Origin: Ectocarpus siliculosus
Taxonomy: Eukaryota > Sar > Phaeophyceae > Ectocarpales > Ectocarpaceae
DNA length: 21,917 nucleotides
Assembly: GCA_000310025.1 (NCBI GenBank)
Contig: FN649746.1
Span: forward strand, 1,674,536 to 1,696,452
Reading direction: 5' to 3'
A model generated the notes under the pieces. The model searched no databases. It had not been told where the DNA came from and was given only the letters and a program-made list of their open reading frames with translations. Below, in pieces: positions 1 through 21,917 of this stretch (position 1 is the stretch's first letter; each line of letters begins with the position of its first letter). The position numbers and the translations under genes are program-made.

Positions 1-3000
1 ATACCCCTCGCGAAGGAGATTCTCAGCGCCACGGCGTCACCCCCCCCCGGCGGGGGGGGTACTACTACCTCTACGGCGGCCCCGCAAGACACAGACCTCC
101 TGCGCGGCAAGGCGATGGAGGCGATAGCGTTGATGGGACAAGCCGTCGGGTTGGAAGTGTTCCGCGAAGACGCTCACCAGGCGAGTCGTGTTGGCAGTCG
201 TCGCTGTCGTTGCCGCGACCGTTGTGCCGCCGTCAAATGTAGATATTGTGTCCGTTTTTTCTTTGCTTATATTGTCGGCAACGAACGGCCCGGTGACACC
301 TCGCTTTGAGCCCCGTATATTGCCACGGGCTCTCCTTAGTACGAGTGTATATATATTTCCCGTTTTGCCCGACCCCTCCATCGCAGCGGCACGGTTCGAA
401 CCCCCTAAATGGCAGCGGGCTCCCCTAACTTTTTTTTTTCCGTTTTTCCTAACTTTTTTTTGTTCGCGTTTTTTCGTACCCTTTTTTTTTCTGTTTTTAT
501 TCCATCGAAACCCGAAACGAAACCACAATCATCTGCAGGTGATCCGGCTGCTGCTGAACGAACAGGGGATGGTGGCCAGGGATCCCGCGAACCCGCAGTC
601 CACGTACACTCTTCAGGTGCAATCCTTGCCCAATTATGTTGTCCTTGTTTTTGTGAGTGTGCTGTGGATGGCATTAACCGCGCAAACCGGCTGGCAAATG
701 GAAATGCGCCACAATCGTTTAGCGGGATAACAAACACGAACACCCCATGTACGTGCGGAATGTTTATCGTCTCATTTTGGACAAGAGCAGTTTTAACCCC
801 CGTTCGGCCTTACTTTTTCTGGGCGCATCAGCCGAGATCACACGGGAAGAAGGCCAAACAGGATTCGTTTTCTTGTCAAACATGTGCTTCGAACGAATTA
901 GTTGTCAGAGCAGTGCACGGTCTACGCTGGGTGTCCGTATGTGTTGGAGTCGTCAGTTTTTTTGGGGGGGCTGGGAGGGGGCCTAATATTAGAAAGGTGG
1001 TGCCCATGCCGACGTTTTAAACGTGCTGGTAAACTTTGAGAACGCCACAACAACCATGAGTCTTGGACTCACTATCTATTTTCTTTTGTGGTATAATACT
1101 TCACGTGCAGAGCGTCTTCATGGGACGCGGGCAAAATACTCGGACGCCTTCATCATCGTTTACGAATTCTTCCCCCTCCCCATCAACTCCCGCAGTTCAA
1201 GACCTTTTTAACGTCTCCGGTATCAGCAGCCCAAAGCTCACTACCGGTAGCGTTAAGGTTGGTTTGGTTTTCATGAAAAGTCGCCCGGTGTCGGCAGCTG
1301 TCGTGCTATGCGTGCTCAGCAGTTTGAGATCCGAAGAAGCGTGCGTAAGTGCAGCCAGCCTTAAAGCTGATTGTATGGCGCACGTTGTACTGATGTCAAA
1401 ACGCGTTTGTACGATTTTTTGGATTTTTTTTCCTCGTCACCCCCTCCCCCCCTTTCTCCCCTGTCCCCCCCCCCCGCCCCCGCACCGCCCGGACGAATTG
1501 CGTGTAAATTTGGTTATTTTTCTCCCCTCGTCGCCCCACCACCACCACCAAAACAGTCGCTTGCACGAATGGCGGGGGTCCTGGTCGAAGAGTTCCTCCC
1601 CTACCTCAGCGAAGCCGTCAAGCCACTCCTGGTGGCCCTGTCCATCAACGCGGAGATCAAGCACTCCAACGCCCCCGACGCCGCCCTCGCGAAGGACGAG
1701 CTCGAGGCGGAGGGGCTTACCGCGATGGCGGTGGACCTGAGGGGCGTCGGCCGCCAGGTCTTCGGCGTGAACACGAGCCTCATGCAGGCCAAGGAGTCGG
1801 CCTGCAAGACTCTCTACCAGTACACGGAGGACCTTGGGGAAGGGTTCGCCCCCCACGCGGCAGAGACGCTAGCGGTCGTGATCCCGAACCTGGGGCCCCG
1901 TAATGCGATAGGGGTGCAGGTCATCAGCTCCGCGATCGTGCCGAAGCTGGTCGCCCTGGCAGAAGGCCGTGCCGCCGAAGCTGTGGCCGCGGGGGCGGGA
2001 GCGAAGGAAGTGCAGGAGGCGCAGGCCATGCTGGACGCTGCTGTAGACGCGCTTACGGAGAGGTTAAGCGGCGGCAGTGGGAACGACAGTGCCCAGCAGC
2101 AGCAGCAGCAGCAGCAGCAGCGAGAAGAGCCGTTGGAGCGGGGGGACCAGGAGCGACAGTGCGTCGCCGCGGATGCCCTCTCCGACCTCCTGGAGCGGCG
2201 CTGCGGGGGTGGCACGCAGCAGCAGAAACCGAGCGTGATTCGTCTCTCGGACGAGAGGCTCCTGAAGACGGTGACGGGGCTGCGAAATGTCGCCGCCGCG
2301 TCGATCGGGAGAACGAGGGCGGCATTGGCGGCGGCAGCGGCGGCGGCGGCGGCGGCGGGGGGAGGGCTCGGCGGACAGGGAGGGATGACGGGGGCCATTG
2401 ACGCGGCGGAACTCCGGGAGCTCGAGGACGGAGAGGAGGAGCTCCTCGTCTCGGTGGTCGACGCCACGGGGTGGATGATCAAGGGCCGAAAGGAAGCGTT
2501 CCTGCCGGCCTTCGAGGCGGTCATGAGGCCGCTCGTCCTGCAGCTCCTGGACCCCGCCGCCCCCGCCGCCGTGCCTCCATCGCACCGCTCCTTCGGGCTC
2601 TGCATGGCGATCGACGTCCTTGAGCACTGCGGGGAGGGGGGCCGGAACTCGGTATTCCAGGCGCCCCTCCTGCCGGCCCTCCTACAGGGGGCCCGCGGGG
2701 ACGATCCGGCGGCGGCGTCCACCAGACAGGCCTGCGCGTACGGCCTGGGCGTGGCCGCGGAGCTCGGGGGGCAGGACTTCGACGCCCACAGCGCGGAGGC
2801 TCTGGGGCTTCTGCTCGCGCTCGTCCGGAAGGACCCCGGCGGCGACAACGACGACGATGACGGTTGGGGAGAGGGTGCGGTAAGGGACAACGCCGTGTCT
2901 GCCGCGTTCCGAGTGTTGATCCACCGCCCTGGCCCGGTCTTCGCGGCGTTCCCCCCCGCCGTGGTGGGGTCCCTCCTGGACTCGCTGCCGATAACGGTGG

Positions 3001-3377
3001 ACGTGGCCGAGGGACAAGTGTGCCACCGGAGGGTCGTCGACCTCGCCTTCGCCCGCCACGAGCTGTTCTTCGGCGGCGGCGGGGACGGGACCTTCCACGC
3101 CGCGGCCGTTGTCCCCAAGCTCGTCACGGCCATCGCTGGGATGATGGAGTACCAGTCCCGGGGGGCCGGCGGGGACGGCTACGGCAGCCAGGAAGAGCTG
3201 TGGGAGCGACAGCTTGTCGACCGGGAGACGAGGGAGAAGGCGGAGGAGGTCGTGGCGGTGGTGAAGACGGCGTTTGCAGGGGGGTTCCAGAGGGCGTGGG
3301 AGGGGCTCGGGGAAGCGGGCCGACGGGCGTTGCAGACGCCCACCAGCAGCGTTTGCTCACGGGCGGAGGAGTCGTAG
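1..3377 (+). CDS. IPO5: Importin-5 / karyopherin beta-3 like nuclear transport receptor, C-terminal part (5' end outside the window)
   Basis: Three exons can be joined in phase 0: <1-180, 539-616 and 1557-3377 (stop TAG), giving 692 visible residues. Seen: exon 1 holds LLRGKAMEAIALMGQAVG and ends GLEVFREDAHQ; exon 2 continues VIRLLLNEQG; exon 3 continues SLARMAGVLVEEFLPYL. These line up without gaps at both joints with the human importin-5 segment around RGKTIECISLIGLAVG, DVMQLLL and ARMCKILG. Later blocks HRSFGLCMAIDVLEHC (about residue 428) and RQACAYGLGVAAELGG match the HEAT repeats before the importin-5 C-terminus, and the end GEAGRRALQ matches the family end, so the stop is real. Family role: Ran-dependent import of ribosomal proteins and histones through the nuclear pore. 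Odd: exon 3 carries Gln9 (2094-2120), a poly-Ala/Gly tract near 2330-2360 and an acidic DNDDDDGWGEG insert, all in loops between HEAT repeats. About 400 N-terminal residues should lie left of the window. Paralogues such as RanBP6 or importin-4 are less likely. Confidence 0.9.
181..538 (+). other. GC-AG intron of the importin-5 gene
   Basis: The exon before ends at a codon boundary (CAC CAG) and the intron opens GCGAGT, which is the usual form of the rare GC donor (AG|GC followed by AAGT-like bases). It closes ATCTGCAG at 538. Using this GC donor gives DAHQ-VIRLLL, which aligns residue for residue with DASD-VMQLLL of importin-5. The nearby GT dinucleotides (184 onward) would add residues and break the phase. 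The next intron (617-1556, 940 bp) is an ordinary GT-AG intron with a long T- then C-rich tract before its acceptor. Confidence 0.8.
2094..2120 (+). repeat. (CAG)9 microsatellite coding poly-Gln in importin-5
   Basis: Nine perfect CAG codons lie inside exon 3, in the loop after the HEAT repeat ending DALTERL. The tract is pure and in frame, so a change in copy number would only change the length of the Gln run. Confidence 0.95.
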
Positions 3378-3728: not shown

Positions 3729-4491
3729 CCGTAGATGACACAAGAAAGCAGACCCTGGTGATGAGATTTTTGAGTTTGTAAAGCTCATGACCGGGTGTGC
3801 TTTCCGGGAATGGGTGTGCTATCTTGTGTCACCGGTGTGATAACGTACACGTTGACGGAGCCCGCAATCAGGGGATGTGATAAGCCAAGTGGGTGCGAAA
3901 AAATAGTTGCCTGCTCCACCATTCCTTGAAGGGGTGTGATAAATGAAGGGGTGTGTGATAACACTCAGCAGACTCTGTTGCGGGGTTACCAACCGACTAT
4001 GTGATGCGGGCCTCGGCGGACGCTGTTGAGCGGGCTTTGGCAGCACTTGCAGTGGCAGGTGCTAATGGCGTCTCATCGTTTGGCTTGGCCGCGGGTTGCT
4101 TCGAGAAAAATGATGTGATCGCTCGTGGAGGCACCGGCGCAGACGTTGCCTTTGATGGCAACGTCTGAGGGACGTCACTTCCAGCAGGGTTGTTTCAGGA
4201 GGGTTGTCTACCTCCTCCACCTCCGTATTGTCCTTGTTTGCGTGCATACCAGCTGTGTGCCTCTGTTTGTGTGTGCACGTCGGGCTGTGCACATCTGTGC
4301 CACCAGCCACCAGCCACCAGGTGCGATAATGGGGGCTCCGTGATTGGAAATGCGGCGAGACTGTAGGGTGTGTGCTTCTTGATGTCGCCGGTGTGATAGA
4401 TTGGCGTTTTTTCAGAGTAAAACAAAAACATCGCTGGGTGTGCTTTCCTGGGGAGGTGTGGCGGGTGTGTGCTATCTTGTGTGACTTACGG
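3729..4491. mobile_element. Degenerate inverted-repeat element (MITE-like), same family as 19930-21868
   Basis: The left end reads CCGTAGATGACACAAGA. The right end, read on the other strand, starts CCGTAAGTCACACAAGATAG. Both match the terminal sequence CCGTAGACGACACAAGATA of the large element at the right of the window. The interior has the same GTGTGATAA-type motifs (for example 3936-3960) and GGGTGTGCTTTCC. No coding capacity. The flanking dinucleotides (TG and TT) are not an intact TA duplication, so this is an old copy or the ends are slightly misplaced. Confidence 0.55.
4140..4167. repeat. Perfect 11-bp hairpin
   Basis: CAGACGTTGCC, a six-base loop TTTGAT, then GGCAACGTCTG. It lies near the middle of the 3729-4491 element, where a stem could be the relic of an inner inverted repeat. 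Confidence 0.7.
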
Positions 4492-6290
4492 TTTGATGTT
4501 AGTCTCGTGTGGATAGTGTTTTTATGACAAGCCACAATACGACCCAACTCCTTGCACGTCACACCCCGCCAGGAGTAAAATCTGAAAACAAAGATTGTGG
4601 TTATTCTGTTGTGATGAATGGTGGATATCCGTTTGGGCGCTCTTCTTGACGGCACTACTAGTCGTCCTAAAGCACATGATGCGTAGTAGGCAAGATTTTG
4701 TGTAGGGGTCGCTCCTGGCCGGTCGTCAGTTCAGATCACGCATGTGGTGAAGCTGGACAGCTAGGTTTGTTAAAACGTCGTCCACGCTTTAAGGCTACTC
4801 TTGTTTTTTTCTCTACAACGTTGTCCGTAAAATTAGATCCCCCCTACCTTCTGCGGTGCACCATGCTCCTGAGAAGATGATGTGGGACATCTGTTGTCGA
4901 ATAGCAGTCGCCAAGCGAGTAGGGTAGCAGCTGATCCTCTCTCGTCCGGAGTACACGGCAACGTTAAATTCAGGAACCCACCAAACCAGACATGTTTTTT
5001 GTTTTGGTTTGGCGCCGCTCACCGCTTTCGAGGTCACCACCGTGTACCCGGGCAGCTCTTCGCTTCGAACCTACTACGCCGACGGGGTCCGCAGAGGAGC
5101 CGAATCCACCGATTGTTGCGCTTGGGTGTATCCCTGACTACTCTCCGCGGCTAATAGCGTACCAACGAGCTTTCAGCGGAGTGTTGTGGGAGTTGAGTAC
5201 AAGCGATCTGAACACTTAGAGCCGGGTGCTTTCCATCTGACTACTTTCAGCACGTACTGCTGCTCATGAGATTTACCAACAAGTGGGCCGTCATCAGGGC
5301 CTTCAGGGATTGCTACACGAGTACTGCAATCCCCAAAACAGGACCCTGCAGAGGGATCCTAGTCCAACATGCGGCACGCGACACCCTCCGCTCGGTGCTT
5401 CCGGGCTTCTTCTGGTATCGAAGCCGAGATCACACTATTAGCTGTTAGACAGACTAGTCAGCTTCGTCGGCTAGATAGACTAAGAGTTTGATAGTTTGAT
5501 GTCATAGGTCAGTAAAAAACAGTTAGGCTTGGGTCATCCGAACCCCACGACTAATTTTTACAGAGACTGAATCGCTGAATAAACTCACATGTAAATGGTT
5601 TGATTTCGGCTTCGAAAGGACACCGATAACTGCCTGCCAAAAACATGGTATGGTTTGGTATTACTGACCCGCTCCAACCTTGCTACGATTGGCAGTGGGC
5701 CGTCGCACCCAAATCTCTGACGAGAAACCAAGGCCAGCATCACACCTGGGGCTAACCCCCTGCCTGCTGATTCTTCTTAAGTCTACAACACGTTTCAACC
5801 CATGCTATTGCTTCCGCGGTGGCAATGCGCAAGGCAATCCGGGGAGATGGCTGTAAAGTTTTCTTGTTGCGCTTCCCCCGGCAGCGCATACAGCTTCACC
5901 CAACGCACGATCGAACGTGCGTTCACCCAGCCTCAACCGCGGACGGGCTCCCACGAAGCTAAGGCGAAAGGGAACAGCGTTCGCACGACGTAGCAGTCGT
6001 ACGTGCATGCTCCTCGAGTACAACGAGCTTACTCATTTCCCTCGAGGCTGAACAGCCGTTAAGTCCTCAAAACGGTAGCAATTATTAAAAAATAGGAATT
6101 TTCTTCGGTCCCCACCCAGAGCAATGCCCCGGCTGTGCGCCGTTTCGGCGCTTCCTGGGGGCACTCTGAAGTCAGTCTTAGAATACTTTCTGTCACCACG
6201 GGCGCTGCAACACCTCTTGGCATAGGTTCGTAACTAGCTCCTGAACACGGAACACTCAGCGGCGGTGGCGGCTATTCGACTATTTTTTTT

Positions 6291-18936: not shown

Positions 18937-19376
18937 GGTGCCGCCCCCCGGTGTTTGCCATCGGGGTTTGGGTTTTCGTCGCTTGGCAACGACGTTGTAA
19001 AACAAGCCCCCCACTCGGTGTTTGCCATCGGGATTGGGTTTTCGTCGCTTGGCAACGACGTTGTAAAACAAGCCAATTCACTTCGTTTTATTTTTTTACC
19101 TCGTTTTTTTTTTTGGCGGTAACCAGAATGGTGGTCGAGTAGATCATGTTGTGCGGGGTCGAGAACCCTCTCTCCGCGCAACGGGGGATGATCGCACCAC
19201 GTTGTGTTAAAATGGTCAAGCTTCCTCGAGGCAGTTACACAGTGCTTACAACTGTCTCTGGAAGTGAAAGCACCAGAAAATAAATTAAGATATATGCATA
19301 CGCAGCTGTCATCCGTACGCAAGGAAGTAAGCACAAGATGCCCAACACCCTTAGGAGGATGCAGCTCACCCTTCAT
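18937..19376 (+). repeat. Segmental tandem duplication, unit 1 (uninterrupted)
   Basis: It starts GGTGCCGCC, holds two ~57-67 bp copies of a module with CGTCGCTTGGCAACGACG (a hairpin), then a conserved body including GTAGATCATGTTGTGCGGGG, and ends GCAAGGAAGTAAGCACAAGA through CACCCTTCAT. The same order recurs at 19540-19927 and resumes at 21871. The TA at 19328-19329 marks the site occupied by the transposon in unit 2. Confidence 0.9.
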
Positions 19377-19449
19377 GCGACTCGCCAAATACCTCACGGC
19401 GCTTCGCGCTTGGTGATGTGAGAGCCTGGTCCGGTGAGAACCCGGCGTG

Positions 19450-19525
19450 CTCCGTCCCGGCTTTGTAGGGATGCGAGGTCAATGGTCAAACGACTACGGC
19501 ATGCACGACTATGAGTACACCCCCC
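19450..19525 (-). repeat. Interspersed repeat 'B', copy 3 (inverted)
   Basis: On the minus strand it gives GTACTCATAGTCGTGCATGC, CGTAGTCGTTTGACCATTGA, CCTCGCATCCCTACAAAGCC, GGGACGGAG. It lies between the two duplication units, next to a C run of about 20 bases (19520-19539), mirroring the G run beside the other copies. Confidence 0.75.
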
Positions 19526-19539
19526 CCCCCCCCCCCCCC

Positions 19540-19927
19540 GGTGCCGCCATCGGGGTTGGGTTTTCGTCGCTTGGAAACGACGTTGTAAAACAAGTCCCCC
19601 CCCCGGTGTTTGCCATCGGGATTGGGTTTTCGTCGCTTGGCAACGACGTTGTAAAACAAGCTAGTGCACTTCGTGAACTCGGCAACCAGGTTGCCGCTTT
19701 TTTATTCACCTCTGTTTTTTTTCGCGGTAACACGATAGTGGTCCAGTAGATCATGTTGTGCGGGGTCGAGAACCCTCACTCCGCGCAAGGGGGATAATCG
19801 TACCACGTTGTGTTACAATGGCCAAGCATCCTCGAGGCAGTTACACAGTGCTTATAACTGTTTCTGGAAGTGAAAGCACCAGAAAATAAATTAAGTCATG
19901 CGCAGCTGTCATCCGTACGCAAGGAAG
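19540..19927 (+). repeat. Segmental tandem duplication, unit 2 (left part)
   Basis: Same order of modules as unit 1 with small changes. It is cut after GCAAGGAAG by the transposon, and the matching right part (AGCACAAGATGCCGAACGCC to CACCCTTCAT) continues at 21871 to the window end. Confidence 0.9.
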
Positions 19928-21870
19928 TACCGTAGACGACACAAGATAACACACCCCGGTGATAACATTTTTGGGTTTGAAACTTTATCACCGGGTGTGG
20001 TATCCTGTGGGGGGGGGGTGTTATCTTGTGTACCCCGGGTGATAAAGTGCGGCTCGCTTGGGCCCTTAAGGGGGTGTGATAAACCAGGGGGTGTGATAGC
20101 ACTTCCGAACACGCACAGAGTGTGTTTGGGGTGTAATAAAGGAGGGGGTAAGGGGGTGTGATAGCGCGTCCGAATACCCACAGGGTGTGTTTGGGGTGTG
20201 ATAATGAGGGTGTGTGATAAAAAGGTGTTAAAAACACTTCTTGTAGAGTTGAACCGCTGTTGCCGCACACTTGAATGGTATTGCGGGGGGGTGGTAGCAA
20301 CGCCTGTACGAACCCTTCATGACTTGTGGTTCTGCGGATTGTGGTAAAACAAAGAAGTTCAACGGAGGTGAAGAAGTTCCTGAGCACATGACTCGGTGGC
20401 CACAGAGTGCGCCATCCGTCCTGCCCCCTCACACAAAAAAGTAGGCTCCTGCATACCTTGCTATTGGGTACGACCAAACAAGTTACGCAGATGTTGTGTG
20501 TGTGAGATACAGTGATGGATATTGGGCATCGAAAATCGATTCAATACTGATATATATCGGCGACACGCGGTATCGGTATTGCCGATTTCCACGCCGATAT
20601 ATGTCGATACGAATCGGTATCGGTATCGATATGTGTGAGATACAGTGATGGATATTGGGCATCGAAAATCAATTCAATACTGATATATATCGGCGATACG
20701 CGGTATCGGCATCGATATGTGTGAGATACAGTGATGGATATTGGGCATCAAAAATCGATTCAATACTGATATATATCGGCGATACGCGGTATCGGTATTG
20801 CCGAATTCCACGCCGATATATGTCGATACGAATCGGTATCGGTATCGATATCGGTATTCGATATTCGATATTTTGGCCCCCTTTTTTACTGGGGAGGGTC
20901 GCTTTCCCAGCTGTCGACTCCCTATTTTCGCTCCGGCACCTACTCCTGTCGCTCCCCACTGCCATCACAATCACACACACACCAGCCACCAGCCACCCAC
21001 CACACAAACGGCGCCTGCGCACCATTTCCTTTTCGTACATCCTTTTTTCGCAAGGTTTCTTCTTTTGTTTCCTTTTGTTCTTTTGGGTGCCTAGAGTTGA
21101 CACTCGCTCACGTTTTTTTGTCATGAAATCCTGCTCGCAGGGGCACAGCTGAGCTTGCACTGATTCGATCGCAACAGTAGAGTATACACACATGCACACT
21201 GACTGGCTGTAAAATGAAGTAATATACATATATCGGGTCGACACAGCTACACAACCACTCTGCCTCTCGCACGATGCAGTTTTCTATATACGCAACATCA
21301 CACCACAGCGTGTGCCCCCTGTTGTGCTCGTCATGTCCAATTGCACACACCTGGCACACACCGCTACAATTTACTACTACTTCAATACTTCCATGCCGCC
21401 GGGCCATGCGCGCACCTTGCACACTGCTGAATACTTCCGATAGGGTTTGCGTGTGCCAGGGTAAGTGTCGTTGCGTAACGCTCGCTCTTCTTGCTACCTG
21501 AGGCCTTCAAAACAGCCGTATCGATATCGAGTATCGATACTCGATACGTACGAGCCATTTTCAGATTATCGAACAAAATATCGGTATTTGCGTTTTTTTC
21601 TCGATACGGCGGGCGTATTGTATCGAACCCTTCTTCCGGACCAACATCCATCACTTGTGAGATACCCACATGCCGACGGGGCAGATGGTGTATCACCCCG
21701 GTGATAGAAGGAGGAGCCTGCGGCGCAACCTCAAGGGGCGTGTTATCTTATGTAGCCCCTTTGATAAATCGATGGTTTGTCAGAAACGCCGAAAATTATC
21801 ACCGGGGTATCGTATTCTGTGGGGGGGGTGGTTTCTTATGTGGATGTGTTATCTTGTGTCGTCTACGGTA
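19928..21870. mobile_element. 1.94 kb non-autonomous DNA transposon with terminal inverted repeats and TA target duplication
   Basis: The element is 19930-21868, flanked by TA (19928-19929) and TA (21869-21870). With the TA included, the first 26 bases are the exact reverse complement of the last 26: the left end starts CCGTAGACGACACAAGATAA and the right end finishes TTATCTTGTGTCGTCTACGG. Further in, both ends keep CCCCGGTGATAA-like blocks after an indel. Family knowledge: TA duplications are typical of Tc1/mariner-type elements. No transposase-like reading frame with a DDE/D pattern was recognised, so it would need a transposase in trans. The interior holds GTGTGATAA motifs (20075-20220) and a 133-bp tandem repeat (20500-20851). 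Confidence 0.88.
20500..20851. repeat. Three tandem copies of a 133-bp, TATCG-rich unit
   Basis: Units start GTGTGAGATACAGTGATGGA at 20500, 20633 and 20719. The middle copy is 86 bp because of an internal deletion of about 47 bases. Each has GATATATATCGGCG and runs of (GGTATC)n. Related TATCGATA-type sequence reappears near 21519-21606. Confidence 0.9.
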
Positions 21871-21917
21871 AGCACAAGATGCCGAACGCCCTTAGCAAGA
21901 TGCAGCGCACCCTTCAT
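21871..21917 (+). repeat. Segmental tandem duplication, unit 2 (right part, cut by window end)
   Basis: AGCACAAGATGCCGAACGCC through CACCCTTCAT matches unit 1 at 19330-19376 with five differences. It is the downstream flank of the transposon insertion. Confidence 0.92.

Follow-up and report, generated by a model that had tools for sequence, protein, structure and literature searches.

Is the 1939 bp insertion with perfect inverted ends in this part of the Ectocarpus siliculosus genome a single large transposon, and do its surroundings reveal when it arrived? The insertion lies near the end of the window, the whole 21,917-nucleotide stretch of DNA that was analysed. The original prediction, made from the letters alone, was of one TA-duplicating element without a transposase, recently moved, that had entered one of two locally duplicated units. 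The features that delimit the insertion and its target are these:

19928 to 19929, no strand: TA target duplication, left (sequence)
19930 to 21868, no strand: the whole composite, an outer TA-transposon broken by a hAT-type element (genome search and end comparison)
19930 to 19953, forward strand: outer left terminal inverted repeat, 24 bp (end comparison; family-wide)
21845 to 21868, reverse strand: outer right terminal inverted repeat, 24 bp, perfect (end comparison; family-wide)
21869 to 21870, no strand: TA target duplication, right (sequence)
19319 to 19342, forward strand: intact counterpart in unit 1, a paralogous empty site (sequence; genome matches)

The anatomy of the outer boundaries was as predicted. 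The inverted ends (CCGTAGACGACACAAGATAACACA) are perfect over exactly 24 bases, with 26/27 bases pairing when they are extended; TA stands on both sides, and the unsplit counterpart GCAAGGAAGTAAGCACAAGATGCC is present in unit 1. We searched the 189.5 Mb genome with the 26-mer formed by TA and the end, allowing up to 3 mismatches, and observed 1,434 matches (715 forward, 719 reverse), a count that covers elements of all lengths. The reversed control of the 26-mer gave 0 matches. The 26-mer is therefore the end of a large transposon family and not a chance resemblance. None of the composite's four frames of 120 aa or more had a Pfam match at E ≤ 0.1, consistent with the predicted lack of a transposase. 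Frame 1371-3377 of the window, which by eye had looked like a genuine gene, also matched no Pfam family, and no Rfam result for the window reached the gathering score.

We sampled 20 other copies of the outer element by similarity to its interior, and these were 716-820 bp long. TA was exactly adjacent at 32/40 of their ends, and on both sides in 13/20 copies, which supports a TA-duplicating transposon whose ends are fixed to the base. The expectation that the flanks of other copies carry TA thus held at most ends, with a minority (8/40) lacking an exactly adjacent TA. These exceptions affect at least one side in 7/20 copies: in the orientation of the element, the right end of L001, L006, L007 and L019, the left end of L009 and L018, and both ends of L008. 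For L001 and L018, TA lies a single base away; the L007 end is indistinct.

The same ends also bound elements of other lengths. Several pairs about 220 bp apart, among the matches listed, carry the variant TACCGTATACG, one base from the window end; at C5:1816367-1816588, a short form of the end family, 218 bp lie between the TAs. Perfect pairs at L034, L035 and L036 span 974, 853 and 862 bp. Six perfect ends that appeared unpaired (L037-L042) were fetched as possible long elements. Four of them pair on closer look (L038, 770 bp; L039, 766 bp; L041, 831 bp; L042, 215 bp), and L040 pairs at 481 bp with a 4-mismatch partner. L037 (C23:2279300-2283600) has one end only; by similarity, it is a copy of the outer element with its own insert of about 1 kb.

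Comparison of the composite with the genome separated it into two parts. With 40/284 candidates scored, which makes copy numbers taken from DNA similarity minimum values, many loci showed positions 1-581 of the composite joined directly to positions 1727-1939 with an overlap of about 10 bp, and a separate set of loci matched the middle alone. A junction of this kind indicates an insert with a target duplication. The parts of the composite are as follows:

19930 to 20509, forward strand: left part of the outer element, ending in the 8 bases of the hAT target duplication (in other copies, joined without a break to the right part)
20502 to 20509, no strand: 8 bp target duplication GTGAGATA, left (copy comparison; site unbroken in 19/20 outer copies)
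20510 to 21656, no strand: inner hAT-type non-autonomous element, 1147 bp, with ends CAGTGATGGATATTGG and (inverted) AAGTGATGGATGTTGG (ends of relatives)
20633 to 20744, forward strand: two extra left ends of the inner element, at 20643 and 20729 (sequence)
21657 to 21664, no strand: 8 bp target duplication GTGAGATA, right (copy comparison)
21657 to 21868, forward strand: right part of the outer element, beginning with the other 8 bp copy of the hAT target duplication (continuous with the left part elsewhere)

Without the insert and one copy of the duplication, the outer element is 784 bp long. The preinsertion site of the hAT-type element is recognisable and unbroken in 19/20 other outer copies (at most 6 edits in a 30-mer), so both insertions have an unbroken counterpart in the genome and both carry a target duplication of their own kind. 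Within the 1939 bp, a hAT-type element of 1147 bp has split a non-autonomous transposon of 784 bp. In a rival reading, the whole is one large non-autonomous transposon moving as a unit; the perfect outer ends, each flanked by TA, would fit this, and transport of the entire composite by a transposase is conceivable in principle. This reading is very improbable: among the 40/284 candidates scored, the window alone holds positions 1-1939 in one piece, other copies cross the hAT site unbroken, and the inner 1147 bp has its own family, its own ends and its own 8 bp duplications. We consider it very likely that the locus is a nested insertion of known kinds of element and involves no new kind.

Nesting also accounts for the length that had seemed large for a MITE, as 1147 of the 1939 bp are a hAT-type insertion, to which its 8 bp duplication is added. 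The 716-820 bp copies themselves are short, have no coding capacity, occur in many copies and share common ends, as MITEs do. Their length lies at the upper end of usual MITE usage. A separate question is whether the composite, with its hAT passenger, has moved as a unit at least once by means of its pogo-type ends. One composite copy was found with 40/284 candidates scored, and we regard such a move as improbable; if true, a transposase of another superfamily brought the hAT element to a new locus.

Elements of the hAT superfamily make 8 bp duplications. We fetched 13 loci of the inner family and observed perfect 8 bp duplications in 6/9 copies with both ends recognisable; the other 3/9, and a further long copy on C30, were without one. 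CAGTGTTGGATATTGG or a close variant stands at both ends of most relatives fetched; in the window copy, the outermost right base departs from the family. Both termini of a relative of 8,006 bp, at C16:6744988-6752993, are exactly the family end CAGTGTTGGATATTGG. This relative is flanked by a perfect 8 bp duplication (ATTTGCGG) and encloses a match to the hAT dimerisation domain (PF05699, E 5.8e-9). These shared ends, the duplication and the domain match identify the inner element as a non-autonomous hAT. An open frame of 447 aa runs over the dimerisation-domain match in the C16 relative. The window contains the left end of the inner element three times (20510, 20643 and 20729), and GTGTGAGATA, from the neighbouring part of the outer element, accompanies every one of them. 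This pattern suggests that the extra ends arose by local duplication once the hAT-type element was in place.

The original prediction called for a search for a full-length relative with a DDE/D transposase. The Tc1-type domain DDE_3 (PF13358) was rejected as the transposase source, with 0 matches in a genome search that may miss weak ones. The pogo-type domain DDE_1 gave 94 genome matches, and 20 of these 94 places were fetched. Five of the 20 are elements with ends of the window element's type, with TA at 10/10 ends:

C1:2225829-2230504, 4,676 bp: full-length relative, close (DDE_1, TA at both ends)
C43:274451-279693, 5,243 bp: full-length relative, close (DDE_1, TA at both ends)
C75:80938-85250, 4,313 bp: full-length relative, close (DDE_1, TA at both ends)
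C340:41490-45854, 4,365 bp: full-length relative, more distant (DDE_1, TA at both ends)
C98:138444-142803, 4,360 bp: full-length relative, more distant (DDE_1, TA at both ends)

The search thus produced five such relatives of 4.3-5.2 kb, each enclosing a DDE_1 match (E 3.1e-15 to 3.6e-18). When frames were scanned, DDE_1 was matched in C43 (E 1e-16), C1 (E 2.8e-17) and C340 (E 4.7e-18). For the CENP-B/Tc5-type DNA-binding domain, HTH_Tnp_Tc5 matches were weak and under the curated cut-off in C43 (E 4.3e-4) and C340 (E 0.0068), and the C1 frames scanned gave none. The elements on C1, C43 and C75 are 81-85% identical to the window element on the left and 77.7-78.5% on the right, and differ from it at 2-4 of the terminal 24 bases; the first ~296 bp of the outer element are 85% identical to the left ends of C1 and C43. 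C340 and C98, which are 97.8% identical to each other, differ from the window at 6/24 terminal bases, and their extended similarity to its element, 75.8% over some 160 bp, is confined to one end. The target sequence of the dispersed repeat is present in one copy within C43.

Aligned with C1, positions 1-548 of the outer element fall within positions 1-732, and positions 586-784 correspond to 4457-4676. This piecewise alignment suggests that the outer element arose by an internal deletion in which about 3.7 kb were lost, the DDE_1 frame included. None of the five full-length relatives is its direct parent. No full-length relative among the 20/94 DDE_1 places fetched carries the exact 24-base end of the window, the closest being the right end of C75 (2/24 bases differ).

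The remaining fetched places were mixed. One end of this type was present at each of L070, which holds 100 N, L073 and L081, where the end is one base off TA. L072 has similarity to the window element, and its end was not recognised. Three loci (L043, L052 and L053) were set aside because they carry other ...TACAGT... ends, that of L052 lying outside its own inverted pair, and L049 because it has a TACAGTAGCGGC... pair instead, its 6-mismatch hit being discounted. No such end was found at L044, L047, L048, L050, L082, L083 or L084; L082 contains 988 N and L084 1,282 N.

We propose that the locus was built in three steps, an order that we infer from the nesting. A dispersed repeat of about 550 bp (unit 2) would have arrived first. 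The 784 bp non-autonomous transposon would then have entered unit 2 at a TA and duplicated it. In the third step, the 1147 bp non-autonomous hAT-type element would have entered the outer element with its 8 bp duplication, and local triplication of its left end would have come later. The 784 bp element would be related to a pogo-like (Tc1/mariner-type, DDE_1) transposon of 4.3-5.2 kb and would have lost internal sequence; it possesses ends and no recognisable gene. The putative transposase of such a relative would move it in trans by cut and paste.

The units that contain the empty and filled sites belong to a dispersed repeat, with these parts in the window:

18941 to 19530 (approximate), forward strand: unit 1, a young repeat copy with C-runs at both ends and leading ~66 bp repeats (copy comparison)
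19531 to 19929, forward strand: left part of unit 2, a more diverged repeat copy and the target of the outer element (copy comparison)
21871 to 21917, forward strand: continuation of unit 2 after the second TA (sequence)

The unsplit 24-base site had 2,115 genome matches at up to 2 mismatches, and its control had 0. A search with positions 19075-19530 of unit 1, in which the best 40 of 2,545 candidates were scored, gave 41/45 match rows (window included) at 96-100% identity and the remaining rows at 94, 89, 89 and 92% (the last over 38 bp). Copies of the repeat (window 18941-19929; L058-L069) have a variable number of leading ~66 bp repeats and C-runs at both ends. Among the eight loci L058-L065, a more diverged repeat tail lies upstream in L058, L059 and L065. 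The flanks of L066 share TACCAGTGCC, a possible 10 bp target duplication. Directly beyond the window end (21917; L057 from 154), inside unit 2, the genome reads N, either a gap or a stretch that was withheld.

Had a local segmental duplication made units 1 and 2, with the transposon entering unit 2 afterwards, as originally predicted, the units should resemble each other more than they resemble copies elsewhere. They do lie head to tail, as do units at four other loci (L066-L069) that were fetched for showing this arrangement. We observed that unit 1 differs by 1.4-2.3% from 12/16 dispersed copies, and by 3.0%, 5.0%, 9.1% and 9.5% from the other four, all of which are in L067-L069. It differs from unit 2 by 10.0% over 279 sites. 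Unit 2 in turn differs by 8.2-9.4% from 14/16 dispersed copies and by 11.0% and 15.2% from the other two; the 16 copies were taken from the best-scored unit 1 matches, a choice that favours low differences for unit 1 and does not favour them for unit 2. As unit 2 is no closer to unit 1 than to dispersed copies, the two are best read as separate copies of the dispersed repeat, unit 2 probably being the older, and a segmental duplication here is highly improbable. Gene conversion of unit 1 is possible. With separate copies there is no local duplication to date against, and the dating proposed for the insertion falls: the outer insertion is datable only as later than the arrival of unit 2.

The perfect ends had also been taken to suggest recent movement. 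We observed 0 mismatches in the 48 end bases of the window copy. Ends were perfect in 5/20 other outer copies too, yet the 20 copies differ from the window copy by 7.6-12.9% (median 10.3%), the nearest sampled sibling being 7.6% different. At the 38/40 ends that could be aligned, 29/912 bases (3.2%) differ from the window end. The two ends omitted from this rate, the right ones of L007 (14 mismatches) and L017 (10 mismatches), would need gaps to be aligned; including them brings it to 53/960 (5.5%). Set against the whole-length median, the 3.2% would agree with a recent insertion, as much of the divergence among outer copies may predate the individual insertions. The contrast between ends and interior rests largely on leaving out those two right ends, and the mean pairwise difference was 0.091 in end columns versus 0.108 in the interior. 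The outer element has since been struck by the hAT-type element, the left end of which was then triplicated and the last base of which departs from its family. Judging by the hAT insertion and the local duplications that followed it, the outer element has occupied its site for some time. Taken with the perfect ends of other copies and the distance to the nearest sibling, these data make a recent outer insertion unlikely.

This locus illustrates how raw sequence can mislead: nesting made an insertion look like a MITE of unusual length, and what seemed a segmental duplication was a pair of copies of a very common repeat. For two DNA transposon families, ends fixed to the base and full-length relatives have been obtained, which should aid the annotation of this brown algal genome.

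Known pogo-derived MITEs, such as Emigrant/Lemi1 of Arabidopsis and MER2/Tigger of humans, combine TA duplication, pogo-type ends and a deleted interior. The outer element is like them in all three respects and differs in host lineage and end sequence. The pogo family is placed within the TA-duplicating Tc1/mariner group in a published account (PMC7325037). The inner element can be compared with Mar of Drosophila, given as a hAT MITE in the summary of its description (PMC3517528); both are non-autonomous members of the hAT superfamily, and they differ in end sequence and host.

Within the brown algae, excerpts from a description of Ectocarpus sp. 7 transposons (PMC12477816) present TcMar-N1_Ec32, a MITE of 217 bp, and its 4.4 kb autonomous partner TcMar-2_Ec32, which carries an EsV-1-7 domain. 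Likened by description, this Mariner-Tc1-type pair resembles the ~218 bp high-copy form and the ~4.36 kb transposase-bearing relatives observed here. The 4.36 kb element on C98 likewise encodes an EsV-1-7 motif (PF19114, E 8.2e-9; L056:3290). The motif pattern was not found in the C340, C1, C43 and C75 loci; for C98, the Pfam match to PF19114 is the actual test. The same EsV-1-7 stretch occurs at L081:642, beside a pogo-like transposon end. Unlike the described pair, the window element belongs to a 784 bp subfamily, and its closest full-length relatives (C1, C43 and C75) are of another subfamily than C98. The same excerpts present RTEX-N1_Ec32, a non-autonomous retroelement of ~600 bp with over 6,000 copies, which the dispersed repeat of the window resembles, again by description, in size, abundance and dispersal. 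As far as these excerpts of PMC12477816 extend, elements comparable to those at this locus are already in print for Ectocarpus.
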